The position numbers and the translations under genes were made by a program. From the NCBI GenBank assembly GCA_938031175.1, contig CALHGZ010000001.1, positions 186,001 to 250,000 on the forward strand: a stretch of DNA of 64,000 nt, in the 5' to 3' direction. The notes below the pieces were generated by a model. The model ran no database searches and was not told where the DNA came from. It saw only the letters and a list, made by a program, of their open reading frames with translations. Each line of letters begins with the position of its first letter. Position 1 is the first letter of the stretch. The stretch is from Candidatus Kapaibacterium sp. (GTDB lineage: Bacteria; Bacteroidota; Ignavibacteria; Kapaibacteriales; UBA2268). Shown one piece after another: positions 34,268 through 42,790 of this stretch.

Positions 34268-36955
34268 ATGTTCAAGGTAATTTTAACTGGGTATCTTGCC
34301 GTAATCACAAGTTACTTATTTTTATATTCACAGAATATACAATCCTTAAATCAAAATATGTTAATTAATAATCAATACCAGCCCGAGCAATATACCAAAA
34401 CACATTCTCCGTATTTTCTGATAAAAGCTAATGATGGCATAGAAAATTTCCCACTTTTATCAACTACAGCCGATGTAAATATAGCTGGAGTGATTGCTGA
34501 TGTAAAAATTACTCAAGTTTATGTTAATAGAGGTGATAAAGCCATTGAGGCAATATATGTATTCCCGACCTCTACAAAATCAGCAATTTATGAAATGATT
34601 ATGTATATAGGTCAAAAAGTTGTCAAAGCAACAATTGATAAAAAAGAGGAAGCCCGTGAAAGCTATGAACGTGCTAAATCTGAGGGAAAGACATCAAGCC
34701 TGCTCGAACAAGAGCGACCAAATGTGTTCCAAATGAATGTAGCCAATATTTTGCCAAAAGATACAATTAAAATTGAAATTAAATACACAGAACTATTAGT
34801 TCCCGAAAAAGGTATATATAGTTTTATTTTTCCTACTGTTGTGGGTCCAAGATACTCAAGTCCTGTCAATAAATCAATGGAAAATGATAGTTTTGTTGAA
34901 ATACCCTATCAAAAAGAGGGTGAGAAACCATCATATGATTTTGATTTAAAGTTACGACTCACAACACCTATTCCAATAACTTATATAGATTGTAATACAC
35001 ATCAAATCATTAAATCAAAAATTGATGACTATAATTATGAAGTTAATTTAGAACCCACCGATAAGAAAAAAGGTAACAAAGATTTTATACTGACCTATTC
35101 ATTAAAAGATAAAAAAATCCAAACAGGATTAATGTTATCAGAAAACAAAGATGAGAAATATTTTTTACTGATGATTCAGCCTCCTGAGCGCGTTAAGAGC
35201 GAGAAAATGCCAAACAGGGAATACATATTTGTTGTTGACGTCTCGGGTTCAATGTATGGTTTTCCTTTGGAGGTGAGTAAAGCATTAATTAGACGAATTT
35301 TAAATGATTTGAAACCAAGCGAAAAGTTTAATATTATCTTCTTTTCGGGTGATTCCAAAGTTTTATTCTCGGATTTAAAAGAAGCAAACAATTACAATAA
35401 AAAACTGGCTGATAGTATGTTGACACTTGCAAGAGCCGGCGGGGGTACAGAATTAATAGAAGCACTGAAAACAGCATATTCTTTTGAAGTCAATCCGAAT
35501 TCTTCTCGATCAGTATTGTTAATTACTGATGGCTACATCAGCTGCGAAAAAGATGCTTTTGATCTTGTGAGAGAAAATTTAGGCAATACGAATCTATTTA
35601 CTTTTGGAATAGGTTCGAGCGTCAATCGTTACTTGATTGAAGGGTTATCAAGGGTTGGAAAAGGAGAAACTTTCGTTGTCACAAATGTAATGGAATCAGT
35701 TGCTATTACTGATAAATTTTTTGAATATATATCGAGTCCAATTCTTACAGATATTACAGTAGAATATAATGGATTTGAAACTTATGATCAAGAGCCAAGG
35801 TTTATTCCTGATGTATTTGCTGAGCGCCCGATAATTATAATCGGCAAATGGAAAAATAAGGCAAGTGGTGAAATCATTGTCAAAGGAATTTCCGGAGATG
35901 AGAAATTGTCATTAACAATTCCAGTTAGTATGTTTGGTATAATTGACAATAGTAATGCTTTAAGATACTTGTGGGCGCGAGATAGACTTACTAGATTATC
36001 TGATTATGCTTCAATTGATGATGAAGCTAAGTACAAAGATGAAATTACGGAAATTGGTTTGAAGTATAATTTAATGACGAAATTTACATCATTTATAGCT
36101 ATTGACGAGGAGAATCGTCGGATATCAGAGGAAATAGTAAGTGTGAAGCAACCATTGCCATTATCCGAAGGTGTATCAGAATTCGCTTTAGGTTCACATA
36201 TACCTACCTTTGCTCCAGTAATCCGACAAAGAGCTTCTTATTCAAATCTTTATAAATCATCAGGTGATGTTGGTAATTTTTATGAAGAAATTGAATTTGA
36301 AGAAATTGAGAATAATAATTATGATAGACCAGCAACCTATGATGAAAAAGAACTCCAAAGGATAGTCAAATATCCAGAATTTGCTCAAATAGCAGGTTTG
36401 GAAGGTAAAGTAGTAATAAAAGCACAAATTGATGCTGAAGGTAATTTGGTAAAATATGAAATCATTAATAGCGATTTTGATATTTTAAATTTTGCTGCAG
36501 TTGAAGCAGTTAAAAAACTAACATTCAAACCCGCATTAAAAAATGGTAACTTTATTGAAGCTGAAATATTAATATCGGTAATATTTAAACTTGAGACTAA
36601 AGGTAAAGGGAAAAAGGTATTAGCAAAGAATTTAAAAGGAATAGATTTTCTTGATATAGAACTTGGGAAAGGCAAGCCAGTAAATATTGGTGATAAAATT
36701 AAATTGCATTATATAGCCTATGTTGATGATACACCTGAAAAGCTGTATAGTAGCTATGATTCAAATAAACCACTTGAATTTAAATTAGGAAGTACAGAAA
36801 TAATAAAAGGGTTAATTGAAGGTATCGATGGAATGCGTTTTGGTGGTAAAAGGCTCATAGTTATTCCTTATCAGAAAAGGTTAATAGGTGAACCACAATT
36901 CAATTTAAGACGAGATAAACATTTAATATTAATTATACAAGTGTTAAATAATTAA
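34268..36955 (+). CDS. VIT-VWA-TonB_C-FKBP fusion protein
   Basis: This 895-residue protein has a signal peptide (residues 1-21), then a VIT domain at about 45-175 ('VTQVYVNRGDKAIEAIYVFP'-like strands and 'ERPNVFQMNVANILP'), a von Willebrand A domain at about 318-500 with the MIDAS motif DVSGS (Asp324, Ser326, Ser328), a linker, a TonB C-terminal-like domain at about 697-780 ('YPEFAQIAGLEGKVVIKAQIDAEGN', 'FAAVEAVKKLTFKPAL'), and an FKBP-like domain at about 798-895 ('GDKIKLHYIAYVDD', 'LGSTEIIKGLIEGIDGMRFGGKR'). By alignment to human FKBP12, the positions of Asp37 and Tyr82 appear to be Tyr and Leu, so rotamase activity may be lost. It is probably periplasmic or surface-exposed. The role is unknown. 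Confidence 0.9.
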   Translation: MFKVILTGYLAVITSYLFLYSQNIQSLNQNMLINNQYQPEQYTKTHSPYFLIKANDGIENFPLLSTTADVNIAGVIADVKITQVYVNRGDKAIEAIYVFPTSTKSAIYEMIMYIGQKVVKATIDKKEEARESYERAKSEGKTSSLLEQERPNVFQMNVANILPKDTIKIEIKYTELLVPEKGIYSFIFPTVVGPRYSSPVNKSMENDSFVEIPYQKEGEKPSYDFDLKLRLTTPIPITYIDCNTHQIIKSKIDDYNYEVNLEPTDKKKGNKDFILTYSLKDKKIQTGLMLSENKDEKYFLLMIQPPERVKSEKMPNREYIFVVDVSGSMYGFPLEVSKALIRRILNDLKPSEKFNIIFFSGDSKVLFSDLKEANNYNKKLADSMLTLARAGGGTELIEALKTAYSFEVNPNSSRSVLLITDGYISCEKDAFDLVRENLGNTNLFTFGIGSSVNRYLIEGLSRVGKGETFVVTNVMESVAITDKFFEYISSPILTDITVEYNGFETYDQEPRFIPDVFAERPIIIIGKWKNKASGEIIVKGISGDEKLSLTIPVSMFGIIDNSNALRYLWARDRLTRLSDYASIDDEAKYKDEITEIGLKYNLMTKFTSFIAIDEENRRISEEIVSVKQPLPLSEGVSEFALGSHIPTFAPVIRQRASYSNLYKSSGDVGNFYEEIEFEEIENNNYDRPATYDEKELQRIVKYPEFAQIAGLEGKVVIKAQIDAEGNLVKYEIINSDFDILNFAAVEAVKKLTFKPALKNGNFIEAEILISVIFKLETKGKGKKVLAKNLKGIDFLDIELGKGKPVNIGDKIKLHYIAYVDDTPEKLYSSYDSNKPLEFKLGSTEIIKGLIEGIDGMRFGGKRLIVIPYQKRLIGEPQFNLRRDKHLILIIQVLNN

Positions 36956-38109
36956 CGAAAAGCAGAAAAACCTGTTATATCCTCACCGATAATTAAGGTA
37001 TGGATATCATAAGTGCCTTCGTAAGTATTTACAGATTCAAGGTTCGCAGCGTGTCTCATAACTGGGTATTCATCTAAAATACCATTAGCTCCATGTATTT
37101 CTCTGGAAATTCTGGCGCAATCTAAAGCCATACGAACATTATTACGTTTTGCAAGGGATACCTGTTGAGGGCGAGCCTTTTTTTCATCCATAAGACGTCC
37201 TAAACGGTAAGCAATTAGTTGAGCCTTTGTGATCTCATTGAGCATCCATACGAGTTTTTCTTGAATGAGCTGGAATGAGGCGATTGGTTTATCGAATTGA
37301 ATTCTCGTTTTAGCATAATTCAATGCTGATTCATAAACAGCGATAGCAGAGCCAATTGCACCCCAAGAAATGCCGAATCTTGCTTGGTTTAAACAACTTA
37401 GCGGTCCTTTTAATCCTTTAACATTCAAAATATTTTCTTCAGGTACTTCGACGTCCTGGAAAATTAATTCAGAAGTAATAGATGCTCTGAGGGAAAGTTT
37501 ATTTTTCATTTCATAAGTTTGGAAACCCCTCATATCTTTTTCAACAATTAAGCCACAAACGACATCATTAATTTTTGCCCAGACGACAGCAATGTCTGCT
37601 ATAGAACCATTAGTTATCCACATTTTGGATCCATTAAGAATAAATTTCCCATTTGCATGTTTAGCCGTTGTAATCATACCGGCAGGATTTGAGCCGTAGT
37701 CAGGTTCTGTTAAGCCGAAACATCCAATTAATTCGCCTTTAGCTAATTTTGGCAACCATTTTTTTCTTTGTTCTTCAGTTCCATAAGTAAATATAGGATA
37801 CATAACAAGAGAATTTTGAACAGATACAAAAGAACGGATAGCAGAATCGCCTCTTTCGAGTTCTTGCATCGCTAATCCGTAACTTGTGTAATTAGCGCCG
37901 GATCCACCATACTCAGTTGGGAGAGTAATACCAAATAAACCGAGTTCAGCTAATTTTGGAATAATTCCCATAGGGAAAGTTGCATTTCTATAATGTTCAG
38001 AGATAATTGGTATGATTTCTCTATCGCAAAAATCAGAGACTGAATCTCTTATGAGTTTTTCCTCTATTGTGAATAGTTCATCAATATTATAATAATCAAT
38101 TTTTTGCAT
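36952..38109 (-). CDS. Acyl-CoA dehydrogenase, closest to glutaryl-CoA dehydrogenase
   Basis: The 385-residue flavoenzyme has 'GCFGLTEPDYGSNPAGM', 'LNGSKMWITNGSIADIAVVWAK', 'RFGISWGAIGSA', 'RIQFDKPIASFQLIQEKL' and the C-terminal 'EIHGANGILDEYPVMRH' plus 'TYEGTYDIHTLIIGEDITG', with the likely catalytic base Glu364. This pattern is that of the glutaryl-CoA dehydrogenase branch, which decarboxylates glutaryl-CoA to crotonyl-CoA, but other acyl-CoA substrates cannot be excluded. It is a single gene whose end overlaps the VIT/VWA gene tail to tail by 4 bases. Its predicted promoter interlocks with that of nusA. Confidence 0.92.
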   Translation of the reverse strand: MQKIDYYNIDELFTIEEKLIRDSVSDFCDREIIPIISEHYRNATFPMGIIPKLAELGLFGITLPTEYGGSGANYTSYGLAMQELERGDSAIRSFVSVQNSLVMYPIFTYGTEEQRKKWLPKLAKGELIGCFGLTEPDYGSNPAGMITTAKHANGKFILNGSKMWITNGSIADIAVVWAKINDVVCGLIVEKDMRGFQTYEMKNKLSLRASITSELIFQDVEVPEENILNVKGLKGPLSCLNQARFGISWGAIGSAIAVYESALNYAKTRIQFDKPIASFQLIQEKLVWMLNEITKAQLIAYRLGRLMDEKKARPQQVSLAKRNNVRMALDCARISREIHGANGILDEYPVMRHAANLESVNTYEGTYDIHTLIIGEDITGFSAFR

Positions 38110-38181: not shown

Positions 38182-38212
38182 TTTGATAATAATTTAAATT
38201 TTTATAAATTTG
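38182..38212 (+). promoter_or_regulatory. Predicted promoter of the nusA operon
   Basis: TTTG (38182-38185), a 19-base spacer and TAAATTTG (38205-38212) give a full match to the Bacteroidota -33/-7 pattern, identical in spacing and -7 octamer to the gap promoter. Transcription would start close to 38218. Confidence 0.62.
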
Positions 38213-38223
38213 TAAATTAAATA

Positions 38224-38244
38224 GGGCTTTAAAGCCCGTTTTTT
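38224..38244 (+). terminator. Terminator-like hairpin in the nusA leader
   Basis: GGGCTTTAAAGCCC (38224-38237) is a perfect palindrome that can fold with a 5-bp stem and TTAA loop, followed by G and six T. It resembles an intrinsic terminator but lies between the predicted nusA promoter and the nusA ATG, so it may be an attenuator, an mRNA 5' stabiliser, or a remnant. No plus-strand gene precedes it that would need a terminator. Confidence 0.5.
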
Positions 38245-38285
38245 ATTAATTTGCAATTATTGTCAAGACAAAATAACGAAAAGCT

Positions 38286-39614
38286 ATGCCAGTAAAAAAG
38301 AAAAAATTTAAGGCTGATAAAAAGCTCATAATCGAAGCTTTTACAGAGATGGCGAAGACGAAAAACATTGACCGCGATTTATTACAGGGAGTAGTTGAGG
38401 ATACTATTTCAATGATTGTTCGAAAGAAATATGGAGCAAATGCAATATTTGATATTATAGTGAATATGGATAAAGGTGATATTGAAATTTATTTGATACG
38501 TAATATAGTTGATGAAGTAGAAGATCCAGCGACAGAAATTTCTCTTGAGGAAGTTAAAATGAAATCACCAGAGGATGAGTACAATATCGGCGATGAATAT
38601 GTCGAAGAAATCACACTCGACAACATAGCCGATAATTTTGGAAGAAGATTAGTAACACTCGCCTCACAAAACTTAAATCAAAAAATACGTGAAATTGAGA
38701 AAGATTTGATTTATAATGAATATATTAACAAAGTTGGTGAGATTGTAGTTGGAGAAATTTATCAGATTAGGAGAAATGATATTCTTATAATGCACAACAA
38801 AGTAGAAATGCGTTTACCACGTGAAGAACAGATACCTAATGAGCCTTATAGATTCAAAAAAAATCAAACAATTAAAGCTATCATAAAAGAAGTTAAAAGA
38901 ACAGGTGGAGGTGGTCAGCCAGATATAATATTATCCCGAGCATCAGATGAATTTCTGGCACGACTATTCGAAATTGAGATTCCGGAAATTTATGATGGCG
39001 TAATTCAAATAAAAGCGATTGCAAGATACCCTGGGGAGAGAGCAAAAGTAGCTGTTGTCTCCTATGATGATAGAGTAGATCCTGTTGGTGCATGTGTTGG
39101 AATGAAGGGCATAAGAATACATTCAATCGTGCGTGAATTAAATAATGAAAATATTGACTTGATAGAATACTCTGAAGATCCAGCAACCTATATAACACGT
39201 GCACTATCTCCGGCAAGAATAAAAGAAATAACGCTAACAGAGGAAACAAAAACTGCTACTGTAATAGTACCTGAAGATCAAGTATCCTTGGCAATAGGTA
39301 AAAACGGTCAGAATGTTCATTTAGCATCAAAATTGACCGGATGGGATATCGAATTAGTAAAAGAAGGTGGCGAAGATATTGATTTAGAAGAATTCAAAGA
39401 GGAATTTGGGCACGCCCTTTTGAGTGAACTTGAAAAAATAGGAATTACAACAGCACGAGAATTTTTAGAAACTGATCCTAAAAAATTACTCGAAATTGAA
39501 TCAATGACAAAAGATTTATTAATCGAATTAAGAAAAATTATTTTGATGGAATTTGATGAGGAAGAATCCGAGGAAATTCTCCAAACAATTAATGATTACA
39601 CAAAAGAAGAATAA
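38286..39614 (+). CDS. nusA: Transcription termination/antitermination protein NusA
   Basis: The 442-residue protein has the NusA N-terminal RNA polymerase-binding domain (residues 1-135; 'GRRLVTLASQNLNQKIREIEKDLIY'), an S1 domain (about 140-200), two KH domains ('LSRASDEFLARLFEIEIPEIYDGVIQIKAIARYPGERAKVAV' then 'GMKGIRIHSIVRELNNENIDLIEYSEDP', and 'AIGKNGQNVHLASKLTGWDIEL'), and a short helix-hairpin-helix tail (about 375-425). It controls pausing and termination. Normally rimP stands just before nusA; here no rimP is present, and nusA opens the operon. The ATG follows the short leader with the palindrome. infB begins 28 bases on. Confidence 0.97.
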   Translation: MPVKKKKFKADKKLIIEAFTEMAKTKNIDRDLLQGVVEDTISMIVRKKYGANAIFDIIVNMDKGDIEIYLIRNIVDEVEDPATEISLEEVKMKSPEDEYNIGDEYVEEITLDNIADNFGRRLVTLASQNLNQKIREIEKDLIYNEYINKVGEIVVGEIYQIRRNDILIMHNKVEMRLPREEQIPNEPYRFKKNQTIKAIIKEVKRTGGGGQPDIILSRASDEFLARLFEIEIPEIYDGVIQIKAIARYPGERAKVAVVSYDDRVDPVGACVGMKGIRIHSIVRELNNENIDLIEYSEDPATYITRALSPARIKEITLTEETKTATVIVPEDQVSLAIGKNGQNVHLASKLTGWDIELVKEGGEDIDLEEFKEEFGHALLSELEKIGITTAREFLETDPKKLLEIESMTKDLLIELRKIILMEFDEEESEEILQTINDYTKEE

Positions 39615-39642: not shown

Positions 39643-42426
39643 ATGGCAACAAACACGCAAACAAAATTGTTTAGAATAGCATCCGAAATAAATATCGGCA
39701 AGGAAGCTATTGTCGAATTTTTAAATTCTAAAGGCTTTCAAATAGAAAATAAACCAACGGCTGTTTTAACTGATGAAATGGTCGAAGCTGTCTATGATAA
39801 ATTTAAAAAAGAAAGAAAAGCTGCTGAAAAACAACGAGAAAAAGTACAGAAACTCAAAGGCACAAAAAAGACCGTTGAAAAGGAGACAATAGAATTAAAA
39901 ACTACCAGAATTCCTGAAGAAGTAATTTCTGAAGTTGAACCTGAAACATTATCAACTAGCATTCAAACAGAAATTATACAAGAGGAAATCGGTCCAGTGC
40001 AAGAATTAGTAGAAGAGGAATTAATACATAGCGAATCAATAGTAAATGAAGAATCTGAAACAATTATCTTAGAAAAAACAGAAATACCAACTAAAACTAC
40101 TGAAGAAGCTGGAAAGAAGTATCCCTCTGAAAAAATTAAATTAGAAGTTGAATTAGAACAGGCGAAAAATACACTGAGCGAAGAAGAAATTCTACAGTAT
40201 AATATCTCAGATGAATCAGAAGTTGAATATCAAGAAATTGAAGTTGAAGCTATTGATGATGAAACTGAAGATATCTTAAAAATAGATGGCAAAATAAAAA
40301 TATTGGGTAGAATTGATTTAGACAAGGAAAAGAAAAAAAGAGAAAAAATAAAACCCCCTGCAAAGATTATCGATCGCAAAGAGAAGAAATTAGATACTAA
40401 AAAAATAGATGATTTATTTAATAAGAAAAAGAAGGTTGTAACTGATGAAGTAATTGATATAGAAGAGATACGAAAAGAACGTACGAAAAAGAGGAAACGT
40501 AAGAAAAACATACGCGAAATGATAAATCAACAAGAAGTTGACAAGGCTATAAAAGAAACAATAGCTGAAATGGGTGATCATTATCAAACCACTAAGACAA
40601 AAAAACGACTTAAGAAGAAACAGGAACGGGATGAAAAGGAATTAAAATTGCAACAGGAAAGGGAAAGAGAAGAAAAAATTCTAAAATTAACTGAATATGT
40701 AACAACTAATGACCTTGCAAATTTGATGAATGTCTCAGCAAATGAAATCATATTGAAGTGTTTGGGACTAGGATTAACAGTAACAATAAATCAAAGATTA
40801 GACAAGGATACAATTGAACTAATTGCTGATGACTATGGTTTTGAAGTTCAATTTATAGAGCAGGAAATAATACAATTACAGGAAGATGAAGAAGATCCAC
40901 CGGAGACGCTCCAACCCCGTCCACCAATCGTAACAATTATGGGGCATGTTGACCATGGTAAAACATCTTTGCTAGATTATATCAGACATTCAAATGTAGT
41001 GGCTGGCGAAGCTGGTGGTATAACACAGCACATTGGTGCGTATATGGTGAGTTTAGATAATAACAAATCAATTACTTTTTTAGATACACCGGGTCATGAG
41101 GCATTTACAGCAATGAGAGCAAGAGGTGCACAAGTAACTGATATAGTTGTACTGATTGTAGCAGCAGATGATAGCGTTATGCCACAGACTTTGGAAGCAA
41201 TTAGCCACGCATTGGCTGCAAATGTTCCAATTATCGTAGCAATAAATAAAATCGATAAACCTGATGCCCGACCAGATAGAATAAAGCAACAATTGGCTGA
41301 TCACAACATTTTAGTTGAAGATTGGGGCGGTAAATATCAATGTGTTGAAATATCAGCTAAACAAGGTACAAATGTTGATACCTTACTCGAAAAAATACTT
41401 TTAGAGGCTGAATTGCTAGATTTGAAAGCAAATCCAAACAGAAGAGCAAGGGGAACTATAATTGAATCGAATATGCAAAAGGGACTTGGAGCGGTTGCAA
41501 CAGTAATTGTGCAAAAAGGAACATTAAAAATTGGAGACCCATTTGTAGCCGGTTCTTATTGTGGTAGAGTTAGAGCGATGTTTGACGAAAGGAATAATAA
41601 AGTCGAATTTGCCGGACCAAGCACCCCAGTTAGCGTTATTGGTTTTGATGGATTACCTGAAGCTGGTGATATTTTATTGGTTGTTAATTCTGATTCAGAA
41701 GCAAAAGCAATTGCAAACCAAAGGCAACAGTTAAGAAGAGAACAGGAATTGAGGCAAGTTAAGCTCACTACTTTAGATGAAATTTCGAGGCAAATACAAC
41801 TTGGAGGAGTAAAAGATCTCAAGCTGATCATCAAAGGCGATGTGATGGGTTCTATTGAAGCTTTGAGCGATTCATTAATAAAACTTTCGCGAGATGAGGT
41901 AAGAGTTGATATATTGCATAGAGGAGTAGGCCCGATTAATGAATCAGACGTAATGCTTGCCAAAGCCTCCGGTGCTATTATTATTGGATTTCAGGTAAGT
42001 CCTACACCAAAAGCAAGAAAATTAGCTGAGAACGAAAAAGTAGAAATTAGGCAATATGACATTATTTACGATTGTTTAAACGAAATCGAACTTGCTCTTG
42101 AAGGTTTATTAGCACCTGAAATAAAAGAGGAAATCACTGCAACAGTTGAAATCAGAAAAGTATTTAAAATAAGTAAAGTAGGTAACGTTGCTGGATGCTA
42201 TGTCCTCGACGGTACAATTCATAGAAATGACAAAATCAGAGTTTTACGAGATGGATTACCTCTATTTACAGGCAACATTTTGTCTTTGAAAAGAAACAAA
42301 GATGATGTTAAAGAAGTAATGCAAGGTTACGAGTGTGGAATACAAATCAATGGTTTTAATGATATCCAGGAAGGGGATATAATTGAGGGATTCAAGGTCA
42401 TTGAAGTTAAAAGAAAATTTGATTAA
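39643..42426 (+). CDS. infB: Translation initiation factor IF-2
   Basis: The 927-residue protein has an N-terminal IF2_N domain (residues 8-55), a long charged Lys/Glu-rich linker (about 60-340), a second IF2_N segment (about 345-400), and the GTPase domain with [12 protein letters not shown] (about residue 433), [23 protein letters not shown], then domains II-IV ('[26 protein letters not shown]', 'GAIIIGFQV', '[23 protein letters not shown]'-like). It recruits fMet-tRNA to the 30S subunit. The linker length and composition are usual for the phylum. It lies between nusA and rbfA, as is conserved in bacteria. Confidence 0.98.
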
Positions 42427-42439
42427 GAAGGGGGTCAGC

Positions 42440-42790
42440 GTGTCAATTCGTTCTGAAAAAGTTGCAAGCTTAATAAAGCGAGTCATTAGTAAACCAATAA
42501 ATGATATAGCACATGAGAATGAAGCTGGAATAGCTACTGTGACCACCGTTAAAATGTCTCCTGATTTACAGATCGCAAAGATATATATTAGCTCTTATGG
42601 AGGTAAAATAAGTACGGCAGAATTTATCAGTATTCTGGAAAACCATAAAGGAGAGCTAAGAACATATTTGGGAGCGAATGTACGTTTACGTTTTACACCT
42701 GAATTGAGGTTTTTCCTTGATGATACACTTGATCAAATGGAACACATCCAAAAATTGCTTGATTCAATAAATCAGAAAAAATCAAATTAA
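42440..42790 (+). CDS. rbfA: Ribosome-binding factor A
   Basis: The 116-residue protein has the KH-like RbfA fold: 'SEKVASLIKRVISKPINDIAHE', 'ATVTTVKMSPDLQIAKIYISSYGG', and 'LRTYLGANVRLRFTPELRFFLDDTLDQMEHIQKLL'. It helps late 30S maturation at 16S helix 1. I chose GTG 42440, which is 4 bases after a strong AGGGGG-like site (AAGAAGGGGGT), rather than a TTG at 42383 inside infB; this gives the normal length. truB follows after 14 bases. Confidence 0.95.
   Translation: MSIRSEKVASLIKRVISKPINDIAHENEAGIATVTTVKMSPDLQIAKIYISSYGGKISTAEFISILENHKGELRTYLGANVRLRFTPELRFFLDDTLDQMEHIQKLLDSINQKKSN

Follow-up and report, generated by a model that had tools for sequence, protein, structure and literature searches.

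What is a perfect palindrome with a T run, the outward form of an intrinsic terminator, doing almost at the predicted transcription start of nusA, ahead of the gene? The window in which this arrangement occurs, by which we mean the whole 64,000-nt stretch of a Candidatus Kapaibacterium sp. contig analysed here, offers part of the answer, and its relatives offer more. We consider it probable that the element is an intrinsic terminator acting as an antiterminator-free attenuator of nusA-infB-rbfA, with NusA-stimulated termination providing negative feedback on the operon. The anatomy of the putative attenuator, its place behind a promoter box, its conservation, the variation of its base pairs and its specificity to the operon can be read from the sequences compared below; from these we infer that transcription probably terminates in the nusA leader, and NusA is, by analogy, the best supported candidate for the effector.

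The palindrome, GGGCTTTAAAGCCC, occupies 38224–38237 on the + strand and is perfect over 14 bp, as the earlier note had reported; it is followed by a single G and by six T residues (38239–38244), and the T tract is then interrupted by an A at 38245. As RNA it would form the hairpin GGGCT-UUAA-AGCCC, whose GGGC...GCCC core is of the rimP-leader type and whose stem is present in both the minimum free energy (MFE) and the centroid structure. The remaining leader (38245–38285, +) leads to the nusA start codon at 38286, so that the palindrome with its T tract begins about 8 nt into the expected transcript and lies 48 nt 5′ of the gene. NusA itself (38286–39614, +) is identified firmly, scoring 361.7 bits against the TIGR01953 cut-off of 253.4 and carrying NusA_N and NusA-type KH domains (PF08529, PF13184). 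The next downstream gene is infB, encoding IF-2 (39643–42426, +; TIGR00487), and then rbfA (42383–42790, +; TIGR00082), the start of which is uncertain and as listed overlaps the end of infB. ARAGORN returned no tRNA or tmRNA. Outside the element, on the other side, lies a divergent gene (36952–38109, −) that resembles acyl-CoA dehydrogenases by its matches to models of that family, every equivalog score falling under its cut-off. The end of that ORF overlaps by 4 bases a convergent 895-aa ORF (34268–36955, +) with VIT, VWA, TonB C-terminal and FKBP-type isomerase domains.

A match to a Bacteroidota-type promoter ends upstream of the hairpin, at 38212. It consists of a −33-type TTTG (38182–38185, +), a 19-nt spacer and the −7-type TAnnTTTG box TAAATTTG (38205–38212, +). 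Fifteen matches to this pattern occur in the window against 7.3 expected, a number reached by one of 100 shuffles, so that about half of such matches are attributable to chance. In Flavobacterium psychrophilum the TAnnTTTG box has been mapped to −12 to −5, according to a passage of PMC9723704, and on this spacing the nusA transcript would start at about 38217 on the + strand, with +8 to +21 taken up by the hairpin and +23 to +28 by the T tract. The earlier note had put the palindrome about 6 bases from the predicted start, a figure accurate to one or two bases. Since the distance from hairpin to RNA end is given as 7–9 nt in a passage of PMC8060035, the predicted terminated RNA would be about 28–30 nt long. 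A start downstream of the palindrome, which the earlier note had named as telling against its reading, appears unlikely: the predicted promoter lies upstream, the TAnnTTTG box is absent between hairpin and ATG (38245–38285) in the window, and among the family leaders described below just 3 of 42 have one in that interval.

Could the element be an accident of composition? For a 14-mer palindrome with up to two mismatches, 0.13 are expected per window, and 4 kb contained five terminator-like sites where 2.2 ± 1.5 were expected. The 118-nt leader folds with z = −1.0, and 32 of 200 shuffled versions were equally stable. The palindrome is there and has the look of a functional element; the evidence of the single sequence is modest or weak, and it is the relatives that decide against chance. 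A separate idea, that the exact palindrome is a repeated genomic element, is ruled out by its one exact copy in the genome.

Judged by its nearest named nusA relatives, which are MAGs labelled Candidatus Kapaibacterium, Ignavibacteria, Bacteroidetes and similar, the window's family belongs to Candidatus Kapabacteria. NusA was found in 47 of its 54 genomes, representing 24 of 27 genera. After two truncated leaders (16 and 58 nt) were dropped, 45 nusA leaders of at least 100 nt could be compared. The strict core, defined as GGGC-N2-20-GCCC with T4 within 3 nt, is present in 42 of them and appeared in none of the dinucleotide-shuffled leaders over 20 rounds. The three others have variant hairpins at the same place: one with a single G-U in the core (G065), one with a different stem (G047) and one in which the hairpin is longer and the T run displaced (G018). 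The promoter box accompanies the hairpin. In 38 of the 42 strict-core leaders a TAnnTTTG box ends 7–29 nt 5′ of the hairpin, four leaders being without it at the expected place, and 200 shuffles gave this arrangement in a mean of 1.4 and a maximum of 6 leaders; the element thus lies regularly near the expected transcript start. Because the genomes are related, these counts lack independence. The comparison of nusA leaders in relatives that the earlier note had called for finds its hairpin conserved, and together with the sister families treated next it indicates that most of the order's genomes that we examined keep a terminator-like element where the nusA operon begins.

The gene that stands ahead of nusA in E. 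coli and in many other bacteria is rimP, as described in a passage of PMC2965389. No rimP was found in the window's genome, and searches using Pfam and an alignment of 11 sister-family RimP proteins found RimP in just one of the 54 family genomes, a set that includes incomplete ones. Across the phylum, 98 of 99 sampled genomes have RimP, the exception being the window's own genome, which is the sample's only member of its family. An order-wide sample, in which the genomes without a match are enumerated in part, gave a RimP match in 68 of 119 genomes, 67 of them outside the family. The sole family match (G041; L185:1465-2424) is an in-frame fusion of RimP to a purD-type GARS in a 320-aa ORF on another contig, preceded by a Shine–Dalgarno-like AGGAG; it may be a real fusion, a contaminant or an assembly chimera.

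Where rimP is present, the same element stands before it. With the G041 gene left out, the sister-family set comprises 67 genomes in nine families, and the strict core precedes rimP in 53 of these: 20/23 in f2, 8/8 in f3, 2/2 in f4, 0/6 in f5, 1/1 in f6, 9/9 in f7, 3/3 in f8, 9/14 in f9 and 1/1 in f10. A TAnnTTTG box lies 7–32 nt upstream in 39 of the 53 core-bearing leaders and is missing from 14. The 14 rimP leaders without a strict core comprise all six of f5, five of the 14 in f9 and three of the 23 in f2; just two of them (G103, G109) have a variant hairpin with a T run, and in none of the six f5 genomes (G027, G036, G073, G079, G084, G089) was such a hairpin, with its T run, found within 400 nt upstream of the RimP match. 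The element is therefore dispensable in some lineages. It heads the operon both with rimP, in the sister families, and without rimP, in the window's family, and the simplest history is that the family lost rimP while the leader stayed and now stands directly on nusA. This apparent natural loss is informative: an attenuator left on nusA after rimP has gone points to nusA, or to nusA-infB, as the part of the operon that it serves. What we see thus seems to be a known kind of control in a family that has apparently lost the usual intervening gene.

The element is also particular to this operon. The control DNA, 464 kb in all, combined the window with 20 stretches, each of 20 kb, from 11 genomes of the family; two of the stretches come from the genome that holds the window. 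It yielded 337 script-called ORFs (ATG start, at least 100 aa) and 178 leaders of 60–260 nt. Some hairpin with a T run occurs in 16 of these leaders, the strict core in one, that of nusA, and nusA is again the only one in which a hairpin with a T run follows a TAnnTTTG box by 4–32 nt. The pattern GGGC..GCCC-N-T4 is not unique to nusA in the window's genome, an idea ruled out by gene-end sites: it has seven matches, and the six besides nusA fall at five sites, each 11–41 nt past a stop codon, with two of the five also preceding the next codirectional gene. This hairpin type is accordingly known to the organism from 3′ ends and is unusually placed at nusA. A looser pattern, TTTG-N6-26-GGGC..GCCC-N-T4, was followed family-wide, and all 13 of the non-nusA loci inspected, which are part of all such matches, lie at most 150 nt downstream of a same-strand ORF; three have a TAnnTTTG box, three have an ORF of at least 145 aa starting downstream, and none has both.

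Variation in the stem suggests what is being conserved. Among 79 distinct hairpins drawn from 95 (42 before nusA, 53 before rimP), the outermost pair adjoining the core is T-A in 55, A-T in two, G-T in two and C-G in one; the next outer pair is A-T in 49, G-T in eight and G-C in eight; and the inner pair is T-A in 42, G-T in six, A-T in five and G-C in four. For the pooled hairpins, outer 1, outer 2, inner 1 and inner 2 beat shuffled pairing in practically every shuffle and the fifth position tested, outer 3, is uninformative; in the window's family alone just outer 1 and inner 2 of the five exceed it, and in both cases the shuffles ignore kinship among the genomes. Base pairs that vary while pairing is kept point to selection at the level of RNA. 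The T tract is similarly regular, with a T fraction of 0.87–1.0 at positions 2–7 after GCCC and 0.20 at position 8 in the 79 hairpins, the early positions being partly imposed by a search rule that asks for T4 and that 42 of the 45 family nusA leaders pass; the break at position 8 coincides with the A at 38245. With short flanks the window's hairpin has an energy of −8.1 kcal/mol. Leader hairpins are weaker than the family's 3′-end terminators (median −9.9 kcal/mol, n = 42, vs −16.05 kcal/mol, n = 28), a comparison biased by the requirement of at least five stem pairs in the 3′-end set, to which 28 of the 337 ORFs contributed one.

These observations bear unequally on the roles that the palindrome might play. 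Perfect 14-bp symmetry between divergent genes would suit a DNA operator, bound by a repressor of nusA, of the acyl-CoA dehydrogenase gene or of both, and the cores of three other relatives are perfect too; yet these and the window's are the only 4 perfect palindromes among the 95 cores, the interior between GGGC and GCCC varies from 4 to 14 nt, and the T tract sits on the nusA side. The element moreover persists before rimP and beside other or codirectional upstream neighbours (5 of 26 loci codirectional), and since the neighbour changes among relatives an operator for the acyl-CoA dehydrogenase gene is judged unlikely; as a whole we find the operator reading scarcely credible. An ordinary terminator that insulates nusA from upstream read-through would accord with the five similar sites that end genes in the same genome. 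Against insulation stand the divergent orientation of the nearest upstream ORF in the window and in 21 of 26 family loci, and the position of the element behind, not before, the predicted nusA promoter, and we hold it to be very improbable. We give as little credence to a hairpin that stabilises the 5′ end of the nusA mRNA, the alternative offered by the earlier note. A stem at about +8 that forms in the MFE structure is what such a role would look like, but a stabiliser has no need of the conserved T tract, and in relatives, where the gap to the box reaches 29 nt, the hairpin begins as far as about +26 and would leave the 5′ end free.

A terminator of another kind is harder to set aside. A promoter-proximal terminator might simply hold read-through at a fixed low level, or be tuned by something other than NusA, such as NusG, NTP levels or growth state, and all of the evidence for a terminator would fit equally well. 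Passages of PMC8060035 report that NusG of Bacillus subtilis also stimulates intrinsic termination and that distal interruptions of the U tract are common to terminators dependent on NusG and those dependent on NusA. Such a general device is at odds with an element that is found on no other leader of 178 and that remains on nusA where rimP is missing, and results in E. coli, as given in a passage of PMC6511841, point to NusA; we therefore rate this alternative as unlikely, though it deserves to be kept in mind. Under the preferred reading, NusA-stimulated attenuation, RNA polymerase would start about 7 nt upstream of the hairpin and make the 14-nt hairpin and the U tract, whereupon a fraction of the complexes would release an RNA of about 28–30 nt and the remainder would read through into nusA. 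More NusA would mean more termination at a weak hairpin with an interrupted U tract, and hence less nusA mRNA. If the start is placed as above, the transcript has only about 7 nt ahead of the hairpin, which is kept in the MFE and centroid structures of the leader; no antiterminator structure is evident. As there is no room 5′ of the hairpin for an antiterminator, the quantity tuned would be termination efficiency itself, a kind of control well matched to a terminator that is weak, has a broken U tract and lies about 8 nt from the start.

Attenuation of this kind has a reported counterpart in B. subtilis, where nusA is reportedly autoregulated through NusA-stimulated termination in the 5′ UTR at the front of its operon, with no antiterminator involved; Mondal and colleagues are reported to have demonstrated the dependence on NusA in 2016. 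We liken that leader to the window's by mechanism, NusA dependence being a proposal for the latter. A structural match is the rimP-leader predicted by Naville and Gautheret (2010; PMC2965389), described in passages of that paper as a short terminator with a GGGc...gCCC stem and a T stretch that heads rimP-nusA-infB, has no visible antiterminator and is proposed to be regulated by NusA. The G-rich 5′ arm and C-rich 3′ arm of that stem are matched at 38224–38237, and its T stretch is matched, after one G, at 38239–38244. Its operon location is matched only in part, as rimP is missing: the window's element leads nusA-infB-rbfA and, unlike the rimP-leader, adjoins nusA itself, beginning about 8 nt from the inferred start. 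Firmicutes and Gammaproteobacteria are the groups named in the passages of PMC2965389, whose main text contains no word beginning ‘Bacteroid’ and whose supplements list other species. The Rfam model of the gammaproteobacterial rimP leader (RF01770) gives 17.7 bits against a gathering threshold of 47 (E 0.8 for 151 bases); at gathering thresholds Rfam had no match across the window, and a permissive scan of the leader gave sub-threshold matches only.

Elsewhere the parallels extend to measured transcripts. In Streptococcus agalactiae, passages of PMC4448216 describe RNA from the rimP-nusA-infB operon ending 31 nt from its start at a predicted intrinsic terminator, and propose negative feedback by NusA. 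That 31 nt was measured by RNA-seq with rimP present, whereas the window's 28–30 nt is predicted and rimP is missing, and the likeness is one of length; it nevertheless leaves unsupported the doubt, put forward in the earlier note, that a terminator at so short a distance from the start would work normally. In E. coli a reduction of NusA termination is followed by an increase in the transcripts of the operon, according to a passage of PMC6511841, and in the K-12 metY-rimP-nusA-infB operon we find GGGCTTTAGGCCC followed by T7 shortly before rimP. Unlike in the window, it is preceded by a tRNA gene and by a further hairpin that has its own T run, and the operon has several promoters (PMC6511841). 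Within the window's own phylum, a passage of PMC9723704 describes in Flavobacteriaceae a structured 5′ element upstream of rimP without an Rfam match; the passage does not call it a terminator, and we liken the two by description alone. The suggestion of NusA autoregulation by attenuation, which the earlier note had called attractive, is strengthened by the conserved terminator at the operon head and by the match to the rimP-leader (PMC2965389), while the role of NusA stays a proposal. We came across no report of the element in Kapabacteria among the open-licence papers listed. A very widespread predicted bacterial attenuator would be extended to this group, and in a minimal form that measures about 30 nt between start and stop and would lend itself to direct tests of NusA feedback.

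How far the arrangement reaches can be judged from rimP loci in families of the class and phylum that lie outside the order. A hairpin with a T run precedes the assigned rimP start by at most 300 nt in 28 of 30 loci (21/23 and 7/7), these being the best 30 of 98 matches, with starts assigned by script and the count covering rimP leaders alone. Their stems differ by lineage, with GCCC..GGGC, GTGGGG..CCCCAC and AGTGAG..CTCGCT types. The function of a terminator thus seems to be kept across the phylum while its sequence is not, and a place retained without a retained sequence favours a mechanism that acts on termination itself. We advance tentatively, and with somewhat more doubt than belief, the broader view that the leader is an ancient sensor of NusA level that targets nusA itself and not rimP, that the window's family kept it after losing rimP, and that it represents a circuit conserved in function across bacteria without a conserved regulator-binding sequence. 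In six class-level relatives (L275, L285, L287, L294, L295, L297) the stem found just before rimP, with its T run, is the mirror form CGCCC..GGGCG.
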